In this document: in pieces, positions 20,244 to 31,754 of the stretch
How the letters are laid out: every line of letters begins with the position of its first letter
How positions within the stretch are numbered: the first letter of the stretch is position 1
DNA from: Clostridia bacterium
Lineage (GTDB): Bacteria; Bacillota; Clostridia; UMGS1840; HGM11507
Assembly (NCBI GenBank): GCA_017554615.1
Contig: JAFZHY010000018.1
Span: 1-60,102, forward strand
Direction: 5' to 3'
DNA length: 60,102 bases
Made by a program: the position numbers and the translations under genes
The notes under the pieces: model-generated
The model's database searches: none
What the model was told of the DNA's origin: nothing
Seen by the model: only the letters and a program-made list of their open reading frames with translations

Positions 20244-20282
20244 TTAACAAAAAAACTTACAGTTATTATTCTGTAAGTTTTT
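20244..20282 (-). terminator. Terminator overlapping the end of the TetM-like/NYN gene
   Basis: A 12-bp stem (AAAAACTTACAG at 20251-20262 with CTGTAAGTTTTT at 20271-20282) is followed on the minus strand by a T-run. The gene's stop codon falls in the loop, so the terminator is partly coding. Confidence 0.8.
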
Positions 20283-22854
20283 CGTTAAATAAATTTATTT
20301 TGAAAAAGTCGCTTTTCTTTACATCAAGGTTATAATCGTCTATTAATTTTCTTACCCTTTCTTCTACTATTTCAATATCTTCCCTTAGAGTTCTTGCACT
20401 CATACGAAGTGCACCGCTTCCGAAAATTATCATCTGCTCCAAGGCATCTGATGTGGCAACGCTCACTTTATAGTTTTTTGAAAGTTCGTGGGCAGTTTTT
20501 TCAATATATGAGTCGGCAGTCTGAGCCTCTTTTGTATATACAATATTTATACCGTTTATTTTTTCTTTTTCTCCGGGGTTACCCTTAACCTTATACGCAT
20601 CAAAAACAACTATTATTTCAATATTTTTAAATGTTTTATAAGTTACCAGTCTGTCTGTAAGAAGAGTTCTTGCACTCTCTAAACTGTCTTTTGCAACTTT
20701 TTTTAAATCATCCCATGCAAATATAATATTATATCCGTCAATTAAAAGATATTCTTTTTCATATTTTTTCTCTTTAAGTTTAACATCTTTTACTGTTACA
20801 GCATCTTTTTTTGTATACATAGCGTCATGAGGTAACTTTACTTTAACTTTTCCGTATGTGTTTTCAAATATTTTTAAAAGTTCCTCATCGGTTGAAAAAA
20901 ACTTTTCTCTTTTTTCCTTTTTCTCTTCTTTTATCTCAGGTTTTAAGATACTTTCAAGATGCATATAATTTGTAACATCCGTCCATTTAACATTAAAACC
21001 TGCTCCGTGAGAACAAAAAATAGAATCGGCAGTATTTTCTATATCCGAATCAGCATCATACGCTATATCTTCTATAACTTTTTCCTGGTCTTTACACGGT
21101 TTATAGTTTGAAAATTTAGTGTTAAGTTTTCCCATTCCGCGGGTAAAGGAAATAAGTTCATATTTATAATCACTTATTTTCTTAGCAGGGCATTCCCCTG
21201 ATATTTTAGTTATATTCCCCTTTGAATAAGGAGCGTCAAATTCTGCGCCCATATAATTTAAGTCGGTCATAACTTTGCCGATATTTTCCGAAGGCACTTC
21301 GATAGTAAAAGTGCAATATGGCTCAAGCACCACACTCTTTGCACTTCTTAACCCATGACGGACTGCCCTGTATGTTGCCTGACGAAAATCTCCGCCCTCG
21401 GTATGTTTTAGATGGGCTTTTCCTGATTTTAATGTTATTTTTATATCTGTAACAGGAGAGCCTGTTAAAACTCCTAAATGTGTTTTTTCCATTAGGTGAT
21501 TAAGAATAAGGCGTTGCCAGTTTTTATTGAGGCTGTCTTCATCAGCATCCGTTTCAAACTGCATTCCACTTCCTACAGGCAATGGCTCTAAAAGAAGATG
21601 AACTTCTGCATAATGGCGAAGCGGCTCATAATGCCCTACTCCCTCAACCGTATTTAAAATAGTTTCTTTATATATAATGCCACCCTGCGAAAAAGTTACA
21701 TCAACACCATATCTTTTAAATATCAGTTCCTTTAACACTTCAAGCTGAACTTCTCCCATAACGCTTAAGCGAATTTCTTTAAGCCTTTCGTTCCATGAAA
21801 TATTAAGTTTTGTTTCTTCTTCCTCTAATTTTTTTAAATCTCTTAAAAATGATGTAACTTCAGTTTCTTTAGGATAGTTAACCTTATAACTGAATATCGG
21901 CTCGGCAGTAAGAGTTTCTGCATTTTCCAAAAAACCAAGACCCTGCCCTGCATATGTTGTTTTTGGGCCGACTAAAGCGCAAACCATTCCTTTGGACAAA
22001 GTATCGCATGTTTCATACTTATCCCCTGAATATATCCTTATTTCGTTTATTTTTTCTTTGTTTATTATAGATTTTACGCCCAAACTCCCGCCTGTTACCT
22101 TTATAAATGTAAGACGGTTTCCCTTTTCATCTTCGGATATTTTAAACACCCTTGCCCCAAATTCTTTATATAAAAAAGGCTCACAGGTTAAATCACAGAA
22201 TGAATGTAAAAATTCTTCCACTCCGATATGTTTAAGTGCTGCTCCCATATAGCAGGGAAATATTTTTCTTCTTTTTATAAGTTCTTTTATATTATCTTTT
22301 AAAATTTTTCCTGTTTTAAAATATTCGCTCATCGCCTTTTCATCACATAAGGCTATATTTTCGTAAAATTCGTCTGTACCATATAATGAAAAGTCAACAA
22401 AATTACCTTTAAATTCATCTTTTAAGTCGTTTAATGTATTCTCATAAGAAAAGCCATTAAGGTCAGACTTATTTACAAATATAAAAACAGGGATGTTTTT
22501 TTCACAAAGTAAGTTCCAGAGCGTTATAGTATGGCTTTGAACCGAGTCAGTTCCGCTTACCACCAAAACTGCATAATCAAATACGCTTACCGTTCTTTCA
22601 GTTTCTGCGAAAAAGTCCATATGCCCAGGAGTGTCAAGAAGGGTTATTTCAGTTTCGTCTATCTTTAATACTGCGTGTTTTGAAAATATGGTGATGCCTC
22701 TTTTTCTTTCCTGCTCATCAGTGTCAAGAAAACTGTCGCCATTATCAACTCTGCCCATTTTTCTTATTTTACCTGATGCGTATAAAAGCCCCTCGGACAG
22801 AGTGGTTTTTCCTGCATCAACATGGGCTAATATTCCCGCAGTTATTCTCTTCAT
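20266..22854 (-). CDS. TetM/EF-G-like translational GTPase fused to a Rae1/YacP-type NYN nuclease domain
   Basis: The 862-aa protein has two parts. Residues about 1-640 resemble ribosomal-protection proteins (TetM/TetO): GTPase motifs AHVDAGKT (G1), RGIT (G2), DTPGH (G3) and NKSD (G4), then EF-G-like domains II-V. After a charged linker, residues about 701-845 match YacP/Rae1: LIDGYNIIFAW, VVFDAY, YTKEAQTADSYIEK, ATSDALEQMIIFGSGALRMSAR. The four acidic residues expected for an NYN/PIN nuclease (about D706, D752, D781, D803) are present. Rae1 of B. subtilis is a ribosome-associated, A-site endonuclease, so the fusion joins an A-site-targeting GTPase to an A-site nuclease. Tetracycline resistance is not implied. 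It follows the FrhB-like gene by 14 nt. Confidence 0.92.
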   Translation of the reverse strand: MKRITAGILAHVDAGKTTLSEGLLYASGKIRKMGRVDNGDSFLDTDEQERKRGITIFSKHAVLKIDETEITLLDTPGHMDFFAETERTVSVFDYAVLVVSGTDSVQSHTITLWNLLCEKNIPVFIFVNKSDLNGFSYENTLNDLKDEFKGNFVDFSLYGTDEFYENIALCDEKAMSEYFKTGKILKDNIKELIKRRKIFPCYMGAALKHIGVEEFLHSFCDLTCEPFLYKEFGARVFKISEDEKGNRLTFIKVTGGSLGVKSIINKEKINEIRIYSGDKYETCDTLSKGMVCALVGPKTTYAGQGLGFLENAETLTAEPIFSYKVNYPKETEVTSFLRDLKKLEEEETKLNISWNERLKEIRLSVMGEVQLEVLKELIFKRYGVDVTFSQGGIIYKETILNTVEGVGHYEPLRHYAEVHLLLEPLPVGSGMQFETDADEDSLNKNWQRLILNHLMEKTHLGVLTGSPVTDIKITLKSGKAHLKHTEGGDFRQATYRAVRHGLRSAKSVVLEPYCTFTIEVPSENIGKVMTDLNYMGAEFDAPYSKGNITKISGECPAKKISDYKYELISFTRGMGKLNTKFSNYKPCKDQEKVIEDIAYDADSDIENTADSIFCSHGAGFNVKWTDVTNYMHLESILKPEIKEEKKEKREKFFSTDEELLKIFENTYGKVKVKLPHDAMYTKKDAVTVKDVKLKEKKYEKEYLLIDGYNIIFAWDDLKKVAKDSLESARTLLTDRLVTYKTFKNIEIIVVFDAYKVKGNPGEKEKINGINIVYTKEAQTADSYIEKTAHELSKNYKVSVATSDALEQMIIFGSGALRMSARTLREDIEIVEERVRKLIDDYNLDVKKSDFFKINLFNEKLTE

Positions 22855-25163: not shown

Positions 25164-25166
25164 CAA

Positions 25167-25333
25167 TGAAATTTGCCTGCGGCAAGTGAAATAACTTCGC
25201 AATGAAATACACTCCGTGTATGAAATATGCCTTACGGCATATGAAAAGGGCAAATTTTATTTCACATTTTTCTGTAAGAAAAATATTTCATAATCCGCTA
25301 GGATTATTTCACATCAACGAAGTTGATATTTCA
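25167..25333. repeat. Hairpin-ladder array 1 (word TGAAAT / ATTTCA)
   Basis: The word TGAAAT occurs at 25167, 25187, 25203 and 25221 (variant TGAAAA at 25242), then its reverse complement ATTTCA at 25259, 25285, 25306 and 25328. Between consecutive words lie different short hairpins: TTGCC-tgc-GGCAA, a weak one at 25193-25202, ACAC-tcc-GTGT, ATGCC-ttac-GGCAT, then ATTTTTCT-gta-AGAAAAAT, TAATCC-gcta-GGATTA and ATCAAC-gaa-GTTGAT. A bridge at 25249-25257 (GGCAAATTT) re-pairs with 25169-25177 (AAATTTGCC). The whole can fold as individual hairpins or as one long palindrome with paired side arms. It is not CRISPR and matches no repeat class I know. No gene is attached to this copy. Confidence 0.8.
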
Positions 25334-25373
25334 TTAAAAACATCTGCATCTATTATGTATGTGAAAGCAACAA

Positions 25374-28852: not shown

Positions 28853-29055
28853 TTTAAATTCCTCCAATTAAATATATTTTCAATATTATATTACCATATC
28901 AACCATCCGATTTCTATTGAATTATTCTACAAAGATTTTTCAGATAAATTATATATTTTGACTATAAAATAAGAACTTTTATTTTTTTATTGTTATTTGT
29001 AACAATCATACACTTATTTTTTTGTATATTTAGCACAAATATTGGTTTTTGAGCA

Positions 29056-29084
29056 TTGAAAAAAACAAAGGTCTATGTTATTAT
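29056..29084 (+). promoter_or_regulatory. rlmD promoter
   Basis: TTGAAA (29056-29061), 17 nt, TATTAT (29079-29084); it lies within the long open frame that starts at 29049 and supports the downstream start at 29112. Confidence 0.6.
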
Positions 29085-29111
29085 AAATATATAAACTTAC
29101 GGAGAATAAAT

Positions 29112-30464
29112 ATGAATAAAAACGATTTAATTACTTTAACCATTACTTCAATAACTTCTGAGGGGCACGGTGTCAGTAAAACTGACGGTTTTGTGTTCTT
29201 TGTTCCTTTTGCGCTTCTTAATGAAAAGGTTAAATGCAAAGTTTTAAAAGTTAAAAAAAATATTGTTTACTGTAAACTTATTGAAGTATTAGACCCATCC
29301 CCTTTTAGAAAAAAATCAGATTGCCCTCATTTTACAAAATGCGGAAGTTGTACTCTTGATAATGCAGATTATAAATTGCAACTTGAAATGAAACTTTTAA
29401 AGGTAAACGATGCGATTAAAAGAATCGGCAAGATTGATTATAATGTTACAAAGATTATTCCCTCTCCTGAAATTTATAATTACAGAAACAAGGCACTTAT
29501 CCCTGTTTCTTATGATAAAGAGGGCAATTTAGTTTGCGGGTTTTTCCGTTCAAGAACTCATGATGTTATAAATATGAGCGACTGCTTAATTCAGGACAAA
29601 GATGCATTTTTGGTGGCTAAAAAAGTTTATGAATGGATGATGGAATATAACATTCCTGCATATAACGAAGAAACCCATACAGGAATTGTCAGACATATAT
29701 ACTTTAGAAAAGGTATTCATACAAAAGAGATTATGGCAGGAATTGTAAGTTATAAAAAAGAAATTCCTTATCTTGACAAATTAAAGGAAAGTCTTCTTAC
29801 AATGGAGGGCATGGCAAGTATTATTATAAATATCAACCCTTTTAACACAAATGTTATTTTAGGAGATGAAGTAATATGCCTTTATAATGAGCCATATATT
29901 AAGGATAAAATTTTAGAACATACATTTAAAATAGGAAGCAAATCATTCTTCCAGGTAAACCCTTATAATGTGGGGAATTTATATAAAAAAGGCATCGAAC
30001 TGCTTGAAATAAATAAAGAAGATATAGTGTTTGACATTTATTGCGGAATTGGAACAATAGGGCTTTTATGTGCAGAAAACGCAAAAGAAGTAATCGGCGT
30101 TGAAGTAGTAAATGAAGCAATAGAATATGCAAAAGAAAATGCAAAGATAAATAATATAGATAATGCCACATTCTATACAGGAAAGGCAGAAGACAAAATA
30201 AAAGAACTTATTTTAAGCGAAAATAAGCCTACAAAAGTAATTCTTGACCCTCCAAGAGCAGGTTGCGATGAAAGTCTCATAAACGAAATAATTAACTTGT
30301 CTCCCCAAAAGATATGTTATATATCCTGCGATGTTGCAACCCTTGCAAGGGACTTAAAGATTTTTACAGACAGTAATAAATATAAGGTTGAAGAAATTAT
30401 TGCATGTGATATGTTTCCGGCAACAAGCCATGTTGAGTGCGTTGTGCTACTATGTCGCACATAG
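29112..30464 (+). CDS. rlmD: 23S rRNA (uracil-1939-C5)-methyltransferase RlmD/RumA
   Basis: The 450-aa enzyme has an N-terminal TRAM domain, an iron-sulfur cysteine cluster (about C71, C77 and C80 in CPHFTKCGSC, and a fourth near 160), and a SAM-methyltransferase domain with FDIYCGIGTIGLLCAE, LDPPRAGCD and the catalytic-Cys motif ISCDVATLARDL (Asp-Val replaces the more common Asn-Pro). The start is ATG 29112 with GGAG 8 nt upstream; the in-frame ATG at 29049 lies upstream of the promoter. The last codons (after HVECVVLL) fall inside an inverted repeat, 30435-30469, next to the hairpin array, so the native C-terminus may have been altered. Confidence 0.93.
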   Translation: MNKNDLITLTITSITSEGHGVSKTDGFVFFVPFALLNEKVKCKVLKVKKNIVYCKLIEVLDPSPFRKKSDCPHFTKCGSCTLDNADYKLQLEMKLLKVNDAIKRIGKIDYNVTKIIPSPEIYNYRNKALIPVSYDKEGNLVCGFFRSRTHDVINMSDCLIQDKDAFLVAKKVYEWMMEYNIPAYNEETHTGIVRHIYFRKGIHTKEIMAGIVSYKKEIPYLDKLKESLLTMEGMASIIININPFNTNVILGDEVICLYNEPYIKDKILEHTFKIGSKSFFQVNPYNVGNLYKKGIELLEINKEDIVFDIYCGIGTIGLLCAENAKEVIGVEVVNEAIEYAKENAKINNIDNATFYTGKAEDKIKELILSENKPTKVILDPPRAGCDESLINEIINLSPQKICYISCDVATLARDLKIFTDSNKYKVEEIIACDMFPATSHVECVVLLCRT

Positions 30465-30469
30465 CACTC
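30435..30469. repeat. Inverted repeat spanning the rlmD stop codon
   Basis: GAGTGC (30435-30440) pairs with GCACTC (30464-30469), and inside it CTATGT-cgc-ACATAG (30450-30464) includes the rlmD stop TAG. It marks the left edge of the accessory segment. The motif TGTCGCA here recurs on the right side of the cassette at 31595-31601 and 31627-31633. Confidence 0.6.
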
Positions 30470-30471
30470 CA

Positions 30472-30644
30472 TCGATATAAATCTCTTGCGAGATTTTCGA
30501 TATGTTCTATTAGAACTCGATATGCCTGACGGCTCGATATGTTGCCTTACGGCAACGAGATTTATATCATATCGAAAGCGAGCATAGCGAGTTTATATCG
30601 AATTTCACGAAGTGAAATATATCGAACACGCAAGTGTATATCGA
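30472..30644. repeat. Hairpin-ladder array 2 (word TCGATAT / ATATCGA)
   Basis: TCGATAT occurs at 30472, 30497, 30517 and 30534, then ATATCGA at 30569, 30595, 30619 and 30638. The intervening hairpins all differ: AAATCTC-ttgc-GAGATTT, GTTCT-att-AGAAC, GCC-tgac-GGC, GTTGCC-ttac-GGCAAC, a degenerate one at 30576-30594, ATTTCAC-gaa-GTGAAAT and ACAC-gcaa-GTGT. The bridge 30557-30568 (GAGATTTATATC) is the exact 12-nt complement of 30474-30485, that is, of the first word plus the left arm of the first hairpin. The design equals array 1 with a different word. The array ends 16 nt before the start codon of the four-helix-bundle gene, so it forms its 5' leader. Confidence 0.85.
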
Positions 30645-30660
30645 CAAAGGAGAATTGTTT

Positions 30661-31014
30661 ATGGAACAAAACAAAAAATTACTCAGAGAAGAAACTATCA
30701 ATTTTGTAATAGAAATTTCAGACATTTGCGACAATATTAAAGGGTGCTCAGTCTATGTAAATCAACTGTTAAGATGTTCTTCATCTATTGGTGCAAATCT
30801 TCACGAAGCAAAATATGCTCAAAGTAAAGCTGATTTTATAAATAAATTGGAAATTGCATTAAAGGAAAGCTTTGAAACTGAATATTGGTTAGAATTATTA
30901 CATCGTAAGAATAAGATTGATGAAATTACATATAAAAATCTAACAAATACATGTGGAACAATAAGAAGAAAACTCATTGCATCTGTAACTACTGCTAAAA
31001 GCAAAAAGGAATAG
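30661..31014 (+). CDS. Four-helix-bundle protein, S23/23S-rRNA-IVS family
   Basis: This 117-aa helical protein belongs to the S23 family first found in intervening sequences of 23S rRNA genes and related to the Avd accessory proteins of diversity-generating retroelements. The family signature is clear: RCSSSIGANLHEAKYAQSK followed by FINKLEIALKESFETEYWLE. Start ATG 30661 has AAAGGAGA 7 nt upstream, just outside the last ATATCGA word; an upstream frame extension to 30634 would read through the array and is rejected. The HNH gene follows after 4 nt. Function unknown; nucleic-acid binding is likely from the basic, pentameric relatives. Confidence 0.9.
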   Translation: MEQNKKLLREETINFVIEISDICDNIKGCSVYVNQLLRCSSSIGANLHEAKYAQSKADFINKLEIALKESFETEYWLELLHRKNKIDEITYKNLTNTCGTIRRKLIASVTTAKSKKE

Positions 31015-31018
31015 TATC

Positions 31019-31591
31019 ATGAAAAGAGAAAAAGGTATAATTATTTCAAACATAGTTGATATGCTTATAGACAATAATATTGGTTTGGCAAAATCAATAA
31101 TCACAAGTGAATATCCACATAAAATTTACGATATAGAAAAACGCACATACACATTAACTCAAAAAATGGAGCAGTTTATAAGAGATGGCTTCATTGACAG
31201 ATATACAGGTCAAAAACTTTTAAATCCAGGAATACTTAAGGTATTGTCAGTATATTTTCCTAATGAGTTCCCTTTTCACCCTCATTGGAAAATGACAGAA
31301 ACACATATAGCATATTGGGAATTAATCCCAACAATTGACCATGTATATCCTATTGCAAAAGGTGGACATGATGATAAAAGCAATTGGGTTACAACTTCTA
31401 TGAAAAACAACTCAATTAAAAGCAATTATACAATAGATGAAATTCATTGGACTTTATATCCACAAGGTAATATAAAAGAATGGGATGGATTATCAAAATC
31501 TTTTATAAAATTAGTTGATAACAACAAAGAGCTTTTAAAAGATAATTATATAAAGGCTTGGTACAATATTTCAAAAAAGCTATTACAATAA
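31019..31591 (+). CDS. HNH endonuclease
   Basis: A 190-aa protein with an HNH core near residues 104-132: TIDHVYPIAKGGHDD (catalytic His 108, metal-site residues), SNWVTT and MKNNSIKSN, which give the H-N-N pattern. The flanking zinc-binding CxxC pairs of many HNH proteins are absent. The N-terminal 90 residues have no recognisable domain. It begins 4 nt after the four-helix-bundle gene, with AAGGA inside the end of that gene, so the two are coupled. Partial array 3 follows. A homing-type or restriction-type role is possible; nothing in the sequence decides this. Confidence 0.85.
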   Translation: MKREKGIIISNIVDMLIDNNIGLAKSIITSEYPHKIYDIEKRTYTLTQKMEQFIRDGFIDRYTGQKLLNPGILKVLSVYFPNEFPFHPHWKMTETHIAYWELIPTIDHVYPIAKGGHDDKSNWVTTSMKNNSIKSNYTIDEIHWTLYPQGNIKEWDGLSKSFIKLVDNNKELLKDNYIKAWYNISKKLLQ

Positions 31592-31625
31592 TACTGTCGC
31601 AGACATCACACAACACATATAGAGA

Positions 31626-31722
31626 CTGTCGCACTGTTAGTGCGAACAGATTCAGTGATATAAATTCTTAAAAGAATTTGCGATATATCTTCGATGCGAT
31701 ATGTCCCTTCGGGACACGATTT
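31626..31722. repeat. Partial hairpin-ladder array 3 (word GCGATAT)
   Basis: A hairpin CTGT-CGCACT-gtt-AGTGCG-a-ACAG (31626-31648) is followed by GTGATAT (31655), AAATTCTT-aa-AAGAATTT, GCGATAT (31680), ATC-ttc-GAT, GCGATAT (31696), GTCCC-ttc-GGGAC and a variant ACGATTT (31716). The word shares CGATAT with array 2, and only the forward orientation is present. It flanks the four-helix-bundle/HNH pair on the right and ends 33 nt from the stop of the convergent metallo-beta-lactamase gene. Confidence 0.75.
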
Positions 31723-31754
31723 GGAATTTGTATTATACAACAAAAATATTTTAT

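Follow-up and report, generated by a model that had tools for sequence, protein, structure and literature searches.

The S23 gene behind rlmD in the window, by which we mean the whole analysed stretch of 60,102 nucleotides from a Clostridia bacterium, lies next to arrays of seven-base words and hairpins, and together they probably constitute a small mobile element with structured single-stranded DNA ends, whose words the S23 protein is predicted to bind. The unit would consist of a gene-end hairpin (h0), an inverted pair of word-hairpin arrays, the S23 gene and zero to two cargo genes (Table 1). The first-pass annotation of this stretch had proposed a mobile or structure-recognising system in which an S23-type protein binds the ladder and an HNH endonuclease acts on it, an interpretation that overall is partly supported by the results reported here.

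Table 1. Features of the unit at rlmD and of a solo array pair in the window
Feature	Position	Strand	Basis or remark
Solo facing array pair, ATGAAAT/ATTTCAT	25166..25334	.	no gene; behind intrinsic terminator
rlmD (23S rRNA uracil-C5 methyltransferase), host gene	29049..30464	+	TIGR00479 E 1e-125
h0, hairpin of rlmD 3' end and its inverted copy	30435..30469	+	directly before word 1
Left array, words W1-W4 TCGATAT (30472, 30497, 30517, 30534) and hairpins h1-h4	30472..30556	.	sequence
Bridge GAGATTTATATC	30557..30568	.	reverse complement of W1 and 5' arm of h1
Right array, words w1-w4 ATATCGA (30569, 30595, 30619, 30638) and hairpins	30569..30644	.	sequence
S23 / four-helix-bundle protein, 117 aa	30661..31014	+	PF05635, TIGR02436; 16 nt after array
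HNH endonuclease-like gene, variable cargo	31019..31591	+	PF13395 E 4e-5
Second rlmD 3' end copy (HIETVALLVRTDSVI*), own hairpin h0' 31626-31649	31616..31663	+	same arrangement in congener
Remnant left array of second unit, GTGATAT 31655, GCGATAT 31680 and 31696; Gut-1-like	31655..31722	.

Ladder words, hairpins and the S23 gene

The four TCGATAT words, the four ATATCGA words, the hairpins and the complementary 12-nt bridge that the first-pass annotation described are all seen in the sequence, neighbouring words each being parted by a different hairpin, and the array does end 16 nt before the S23 gene (array end 30644, gene start 30661). By inspection, the bridge GAGATTTATATC is complementary to GATATAAATCTC of word 1 and hairpin 1, and a further hairpin, missing from the earlier list, lies just upstream of the ladder at 30435-30469. 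TCGATAT occurs 20 times in the window compared to 6.7 expected, a count reached by none of 100 shuffles, and the fold check that had been suggested places the array far beyond shuffles with both RNA (z -3.8) and DNA (z -6.2) parameters. The partial array noted downstream is present as well; its word GCGATAT is not enriched in the window (4 copies vs 4.0 expected), so that what distinguishes this array is its spacing and its hairpins. Among 40 loci, the bridge is complementary over at least 7 nt to the first hairpin of its own locus in 65%, compared to 5% for unrelated first hairpins, indicating that the pairing is kept while the sequence varies. Array stems are 98% Watson-Crick.

Using a word-blind, de novo detector on about 97% of the source genome, we found 34 ladders in the 1.24 Mb scanned compared to 1 in shuffled sequence, the recurring words being TCGATAT, GCGATAT, GTGATAT, GTGAAAT/ATGAAAT and GCTAAAT. 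All three intact S23 genes of this genome are flanked by ladder arrays, with three different words, and some solo words (GTGAAAT, GCGATAT) are without a matching S23 there now.

The S23-type four-helix-bundle identity of the protein holds, since it exceeds the curated cut-offs of both family profiles (PF05635, E 9e-21, 74.5 bits, cut-off 33.8; TIGR02436, E 1e-23, 83.5 bits, cut-off 24) and its AlphaFold model (pLDDT 95) has the four-helix-bundle fold of S23 crystal structures. The best PDB matches of the model are the solved S23 proteins 2rld (TM 0.86) and 2gsc (TM 0.83) and, more distantly, Avd of diversity-generating retroelements (DGRs; 4dwl). Structures of this family have been available since 2006-2007, and to our knowledge no role for it is known.

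We assembled 80 S23 loci from named Clostridia/Oscillospiraceae MAGs together with loci from other searches. An array lies within 450 nt upstream of 110 of the 130 clostridial S23 genes that had enough upstream sequence, compared to 1 of 650 shuffles; the commonest layout before S23 genes is exactly 4+4 words, and the same loci have 0.58 ladders per kb near S23, compared to 0.031 per kb in their other parts. Over 391 genomes, 22 of the 27 that bear TCGATAT arrays encode a matching S23, compared to 81 of the 364 others (Fisher p 7e-10). The first-pass annotation had named common arrays with no link to S23 as the case against its reading; solo arrays are indeed common, yet the link is there.

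Placed on the S23 tree, the word makes 12 changes for 12 states (minimum 11), compared to 39-48 for shuffled words, and at rlmD sites alone it makes 2 (minimum 2), compared to 7-12; the site itself (rlmD or not) makes 13 changes. On these sequence comparisons the heptamer word tracks the lineage of the S23 protein, not the place of insertion, so that the word at a given site varies with the lineage and stays the same within a lineage from site to site. The simplest reason for such strict co-variation would be recognition of the word by the S23 protein, and the linkage is partly the joint inheritance of adjacent parts.

The rlmD attachment site and evidence of movement

The 3' end of rlmD is the attachment site of the unit, and rlmD is a hotspot: S23 loci lie right behind it in 29 of 82 cases in one locus set and 35 of 133 in another. 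The last rlmD codons of the window (HVECVVLLCRT*) fall inside the unit's first hairpin. Perfect h0 arms of at least 8 bp are present in 35 of 82 S23 loci and 4 of 820 random sites, h0 being imperfect as a palindrome in more than half of the loci by this strict test, and neither the h0 hairpin nor arrays were found at element-free rlmD ends in the same order. A reading of h0 as a simple terminator target was rejected for rlmD, whose displaced and element-free ends are without the hairpin; for solos that follow real terminators it may still apply.

At L147, L223, L225, L155 and L156, the sequence beyond S23 and cargo contains a second rlmD end, of the ordinary kind and with a stop codon. At rlmD, the unit has pushed the native gene end downstream and put a new one in its place. 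The second rlmD-end copy bears another array in the window, in the congener G001 and at L165 and L183, and copy and array represent there a second unit in tandem; the downstream partial array of the window is what is left of a second unit at this rlmD site and does not complete the first. At L165, two array-S23 units, both complete, follow each other at rlmD. At L152, the ladder behind the S23 gene bears an rlmD-type hairpin though it is not at rlmD.

Presence and absence at an orthologous place was found in G001, where an insert of about 650 bp with the order array, S23, array (L079 5520-6178) parts stretches that are contiguous in the source genome (G000:C27); the genes flanking it are presumably nrdR and a PHP-type phosphoesterase. 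Given a divergence of about 25% between the congeners, no clean target-site duplication could be read at this single empty site. The empty site and the displaced gene ends bear out the mobile, structure-dependent character proposed in the first-pass annotation, the part that did not stand being HNH as a core component. In L079, outward arrays flank S23, and at rlmD loci both arrays are joined ahead of it; these layouts are circular permutations, which is what a circular intermediate would give.

Comparison of the sequences shows that arrays and S23 form one unit and that the arrays also spread as solos. TCGATAT arrays give 131 pattern matches in G001, or roughly 65 arrays, of which some are nested with GCTAAAT arrays, the composites being duplicated. 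One such GCTAAAT+TCGATAT composite is copied to several places in G001 (L560, L561, L545) and has promoter-like tails (TTGGCATCTAAATTATACAGTCTTTATAT), and at L554, L556 and others high-copy TCGATAT arrays are one-sided, their tail (GAGAAAAGGACGGATGCCGAATGGCATATCCGTCC) being fixed. The window gap at 20251-20298 corresponds to a 1.7-kb insert in G001 (L556 671-2384), in which inverted word-hairpin arrays surround a ribbon-helix-helix-like gene and another cargo gene. The solo pair of the window, which exceeds the Rfam Gut-1 threshold on both strands, is a non-coding relative of the S23 unit. Phages were considered as a source, and scans of viral contigs yielded mostly chance matches.

Strand asymmetry of the hairpin loops

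Loops of the form G(N)NA are found on the bottom strand in 58 of 104 hairpins of left arrays and on the top strand in 0 of 104, and in right arrays on the top strand in 53 of 108 and on the bottom strand in 0 of 108. Pooled over both sides, this is 111 of 212 on the favoured strand compared to 0 of 212 on the other, with only about half of the array loops being G(N)NA and with the hairpins related by descent, so that the counts are not independent. Solo arrays behave likewise, with G..A loops at 21/40 vs 0/40 and 40/86 vs 1/86 by strand, and terminators of the source genome, used as a control, are without strand bias (13 vs 12 of 183). When closed by G-C pairs, GNA and GNNA loops give DNA mini-hairpins of extraordinary stability (PMC4686876), of which G(N)NA loops on one strand are a signature; the arrays look for this reason like single-stranded DNA ends, and we infer that they are such ends, with the 3' end outward.

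The same arrays have a counterpart in Rfam, where the model of Gut-1 (RF01706) is half an array with the word GTGAAAT. The source genome has 35 Gut-1 matches, 12 of them above the cut-off (50-72, top 71.9 bits) and often as facing pairs; the array at 31653-31727 scores 37.6 bits, below the gathering score of 50. Gut-1 is an Rfam sRNA listed as a likely noncoding RNA (PMC2864571), and it is here reread as the DNA end of S23 units. If this listing is followed, with related source-genome arrays passing the threshold, and if the short distance between array and S23 start codon, similar in most loci, is taken into account, the arrays could be RNA, both as a structured, autoregulatory 5' leader in the S23 mRNA and as free small RNAs. 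We consider this unlikely, since the favoured strand is opposite in the two arrays: a single RNA leader would not account for both, and no single transcript has both sets of favoured loops. In addition, the G..A loops are mostly triloops or GNYA and not the GNRA of RNA, in one unit the gene is flanked by arrays on either side, and many of the dispersed solos precede no S23 gene. The arrays are nearly mismatch-free (4 GT, 2 AC) and without an excess of G-U pairs, a test for RNA that has little power and does not decide, as terminators show only a slight GT excess (107 vs 81 AC). The pairing of the four-helix-bundle protein with the ladder that the first-pass annotation had suggested is supported, probably with the ladder as folded single-stranded DNA, by the association, by the co-variation of word and protein and by the strand-specific DNA-type loops.

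Proposed mechanism, cargo and related systems

In the mechanism that we propose, the strand with ATATCGA and the G(N)NA loops would be exposed as single-stranded DNA during replication, repair or uptake and would fold into a row of mini-hairpins with the words between them. S23 relatives with solved structures form a pentameric ring, and such a ring would bind the words on the single-stranded DNA. The facing arrays would represent the two ends of the unit brought together, and joining and insertion would occur next to gene-end hairpins. The cutting and joining enzyme would lie outside the unit, presumably among host functions (recombination, replication restart) or as a trans-acting recombinase; the minimal unit, L079, encodes S23 alone, and no strand-transfer enzyme was found in it.

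The HNH gene had been put forward as the core partner of S23, forming a two-component system in which S23 binds the ladder and HNH cuts. The two genes are 4 nt apart in the window, the HNH match is genuine, though weak (PF13395 E 4e-5), and a different S23-HNH pair exists at L145. At the same rlmD site of G001, however, behind an S23 that is 91% identical, HNH is swapped for an unrelated membrane protein, only 2-3 of the 39 cargo genes tested are HNH, and a unit with no other gene at all exists in L079. Such a system is very improbable and, by the cargo survey, largely refuted; HNH swapped in the congener and the variable genes next to S23 indicate that HNH is cargo. Elsewhere, S23 is followed by Mrr-type restriction enzymes, P-loop kinases, a methyltransferase and small unknown proteins; some cargo types recur behind S23 proteins with different words, and in some loci the next gene is merely the native neighbour, as with an S23 gene between what we take to be carB and pyrK. 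The lack of any enzyme in the unit would also fit movement by an unrelated trans recombinase or by homologous recombination at gene ends, S23 then being a passenger that binds or regulates the ends and is dispensable for movement. Homologous exchange could make use of the direct repeats of the rlmD end, or these could act as an integrase site, and larger elements are known to integrate at rlmD/rumA ends. We regard this as possible, though more doubtful than probable, because S23 is the one protein kept as cargo varies, word and S23 lineage shift together, and S23 accompanies heptamers in other phyla without hairpins. That the arrays are functionless products of neutral slippage or fold-back could draw on the ascription of bacterial heptamer repeats to polymerase slippage (a view quoted in PMC4679880 and PMC4692102), but is scarcely credible given the 4+4 count, the bridge complementarity, the loop asymmetry and the protein-specific words.

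The working style of the mobile S23 unit is nearest to REP/RAYT and attC systems, and by the tests made it is probably a member of neither. As in REP/REPIN-RAYT and IS200/IS605, a short foot word stands by a single-strand hairpin, the strands are asymmetric (G(N)NA loops confined to one of them), solos are dispersed and related copies flank a protein gene; the protein here is a helical bundle and not an HUH enzyme, and a search of the source genome with PF01797 gave no Y1 transposase. The heptamer words and the 4+4 arrays with a complementary bridge differ from REP/RAYT. Like integron cassettes, the unit has small, exchangeable cargo genes that follow a site folded from a single strand; it differs in having no integrase ORF within it, arrays in place of one attC hairpin, and a constant S23 gene. 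DGRs share the Avd fold (4dwl, 8ub7), and no reverse transcriptase was found with PF00078 in the source genome, which is 98.7% complete; the absence of reverse transcriptase and Y1 there rules out DGR or IS200-type machinery. The 23S rRNA intervening sequences (IVSs) with S23p, as in Coxiella and Leptospira, have long been suspected to be mobile. They share the protein family, and in the Coxiella IVS the heptamer GACAGAT is repeated immediately ahead of S23p (PMC4990558); units like that of the window lie behind rlmD or other protein genes, with hairpins between words, and the window unit is not inside a 23S rRNA gene but between rlmD and a metallo-beta-lactamase/ACT gene.

Intergenic arrays of seven-base words are also a feature of the heptamer repeats of cyanobacteria (STRR), Xanthomonas (GGGAATC) and Beggiatoaceae (TAACTGA), which have no hairpins between the words, and such tandem heptamer arrays flank S23 genes on plasmids. 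Among 16 plasmid S23 loci, mostly from Cyanobacteria but also from Treponema, Bernardetia, Chloroflexota and one Clostridia, 11 have period-7 tandem repeats within 300 nt (background 4/74), clearly inverted on the two sides in at least 4 of the 11, and each other period from 4 to 10 gave 0 of 16. On the plasmids of L562-L578, several S23 genes lie in gaps of defence operons (helicase/N6-methylase, hsdS/hsdR, cas2/cas1, DUF1156/Swt1-HEPN). One S23 gene of G001 lies between (GCAGAAT)n and its inverse, a heptamer dispersed in that genome, and over the 391 genomes GCAGAAT tandem arrays go with S23 in 7 of 9 compared to 96 of 382 (p 0.002). A strict detector found no heptamer tandem arrays in the source genome, with a degenerate stretch alone beside an S23 fragment on C13. 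The papers on bacterial heptamer repeats (PMC4679880, PMC4692102) do not mention S23, and we found no described S23-repeat link in the open-access literature, subscription papers being mostly beyond the search.

These observations suggest that the partner so far missing for the heptamer repeats of bacteria is the S23 family. Somewhat short of an even chance, in our estimation, is the broader reading that the S23/four-helix-bundle family is a dedicated heptamer-word partner across bacteria and a new mobile class, in which a non-enzymatic ring protein would read a lineage-specific seven-base word on single-stranded DNA, within hairpin ladders in Clostridia (including the 'Gut-1 RNA') and within plain tandem heptamers elsewhere (cyanobacterial STRR, Xanthomonas, Beggiatoaceae), with the 23S rRNA IVS and DGR Avd as offshoots. 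Its least tested part is the generalisation across phyla, which draws on few loci. If true, the S23 family would gain a function and a specificity code, the orphan Gut-1 'RNA' family would be explained as DNA ends, and the heptamer-repeat puzzle would become directly testable, the word being predictable from the S23 sequence. The array unit is found across gut Clostridia with S23 as its sole constant protein, and a mobile element without its own transposase would represent a new way of moving DNA.
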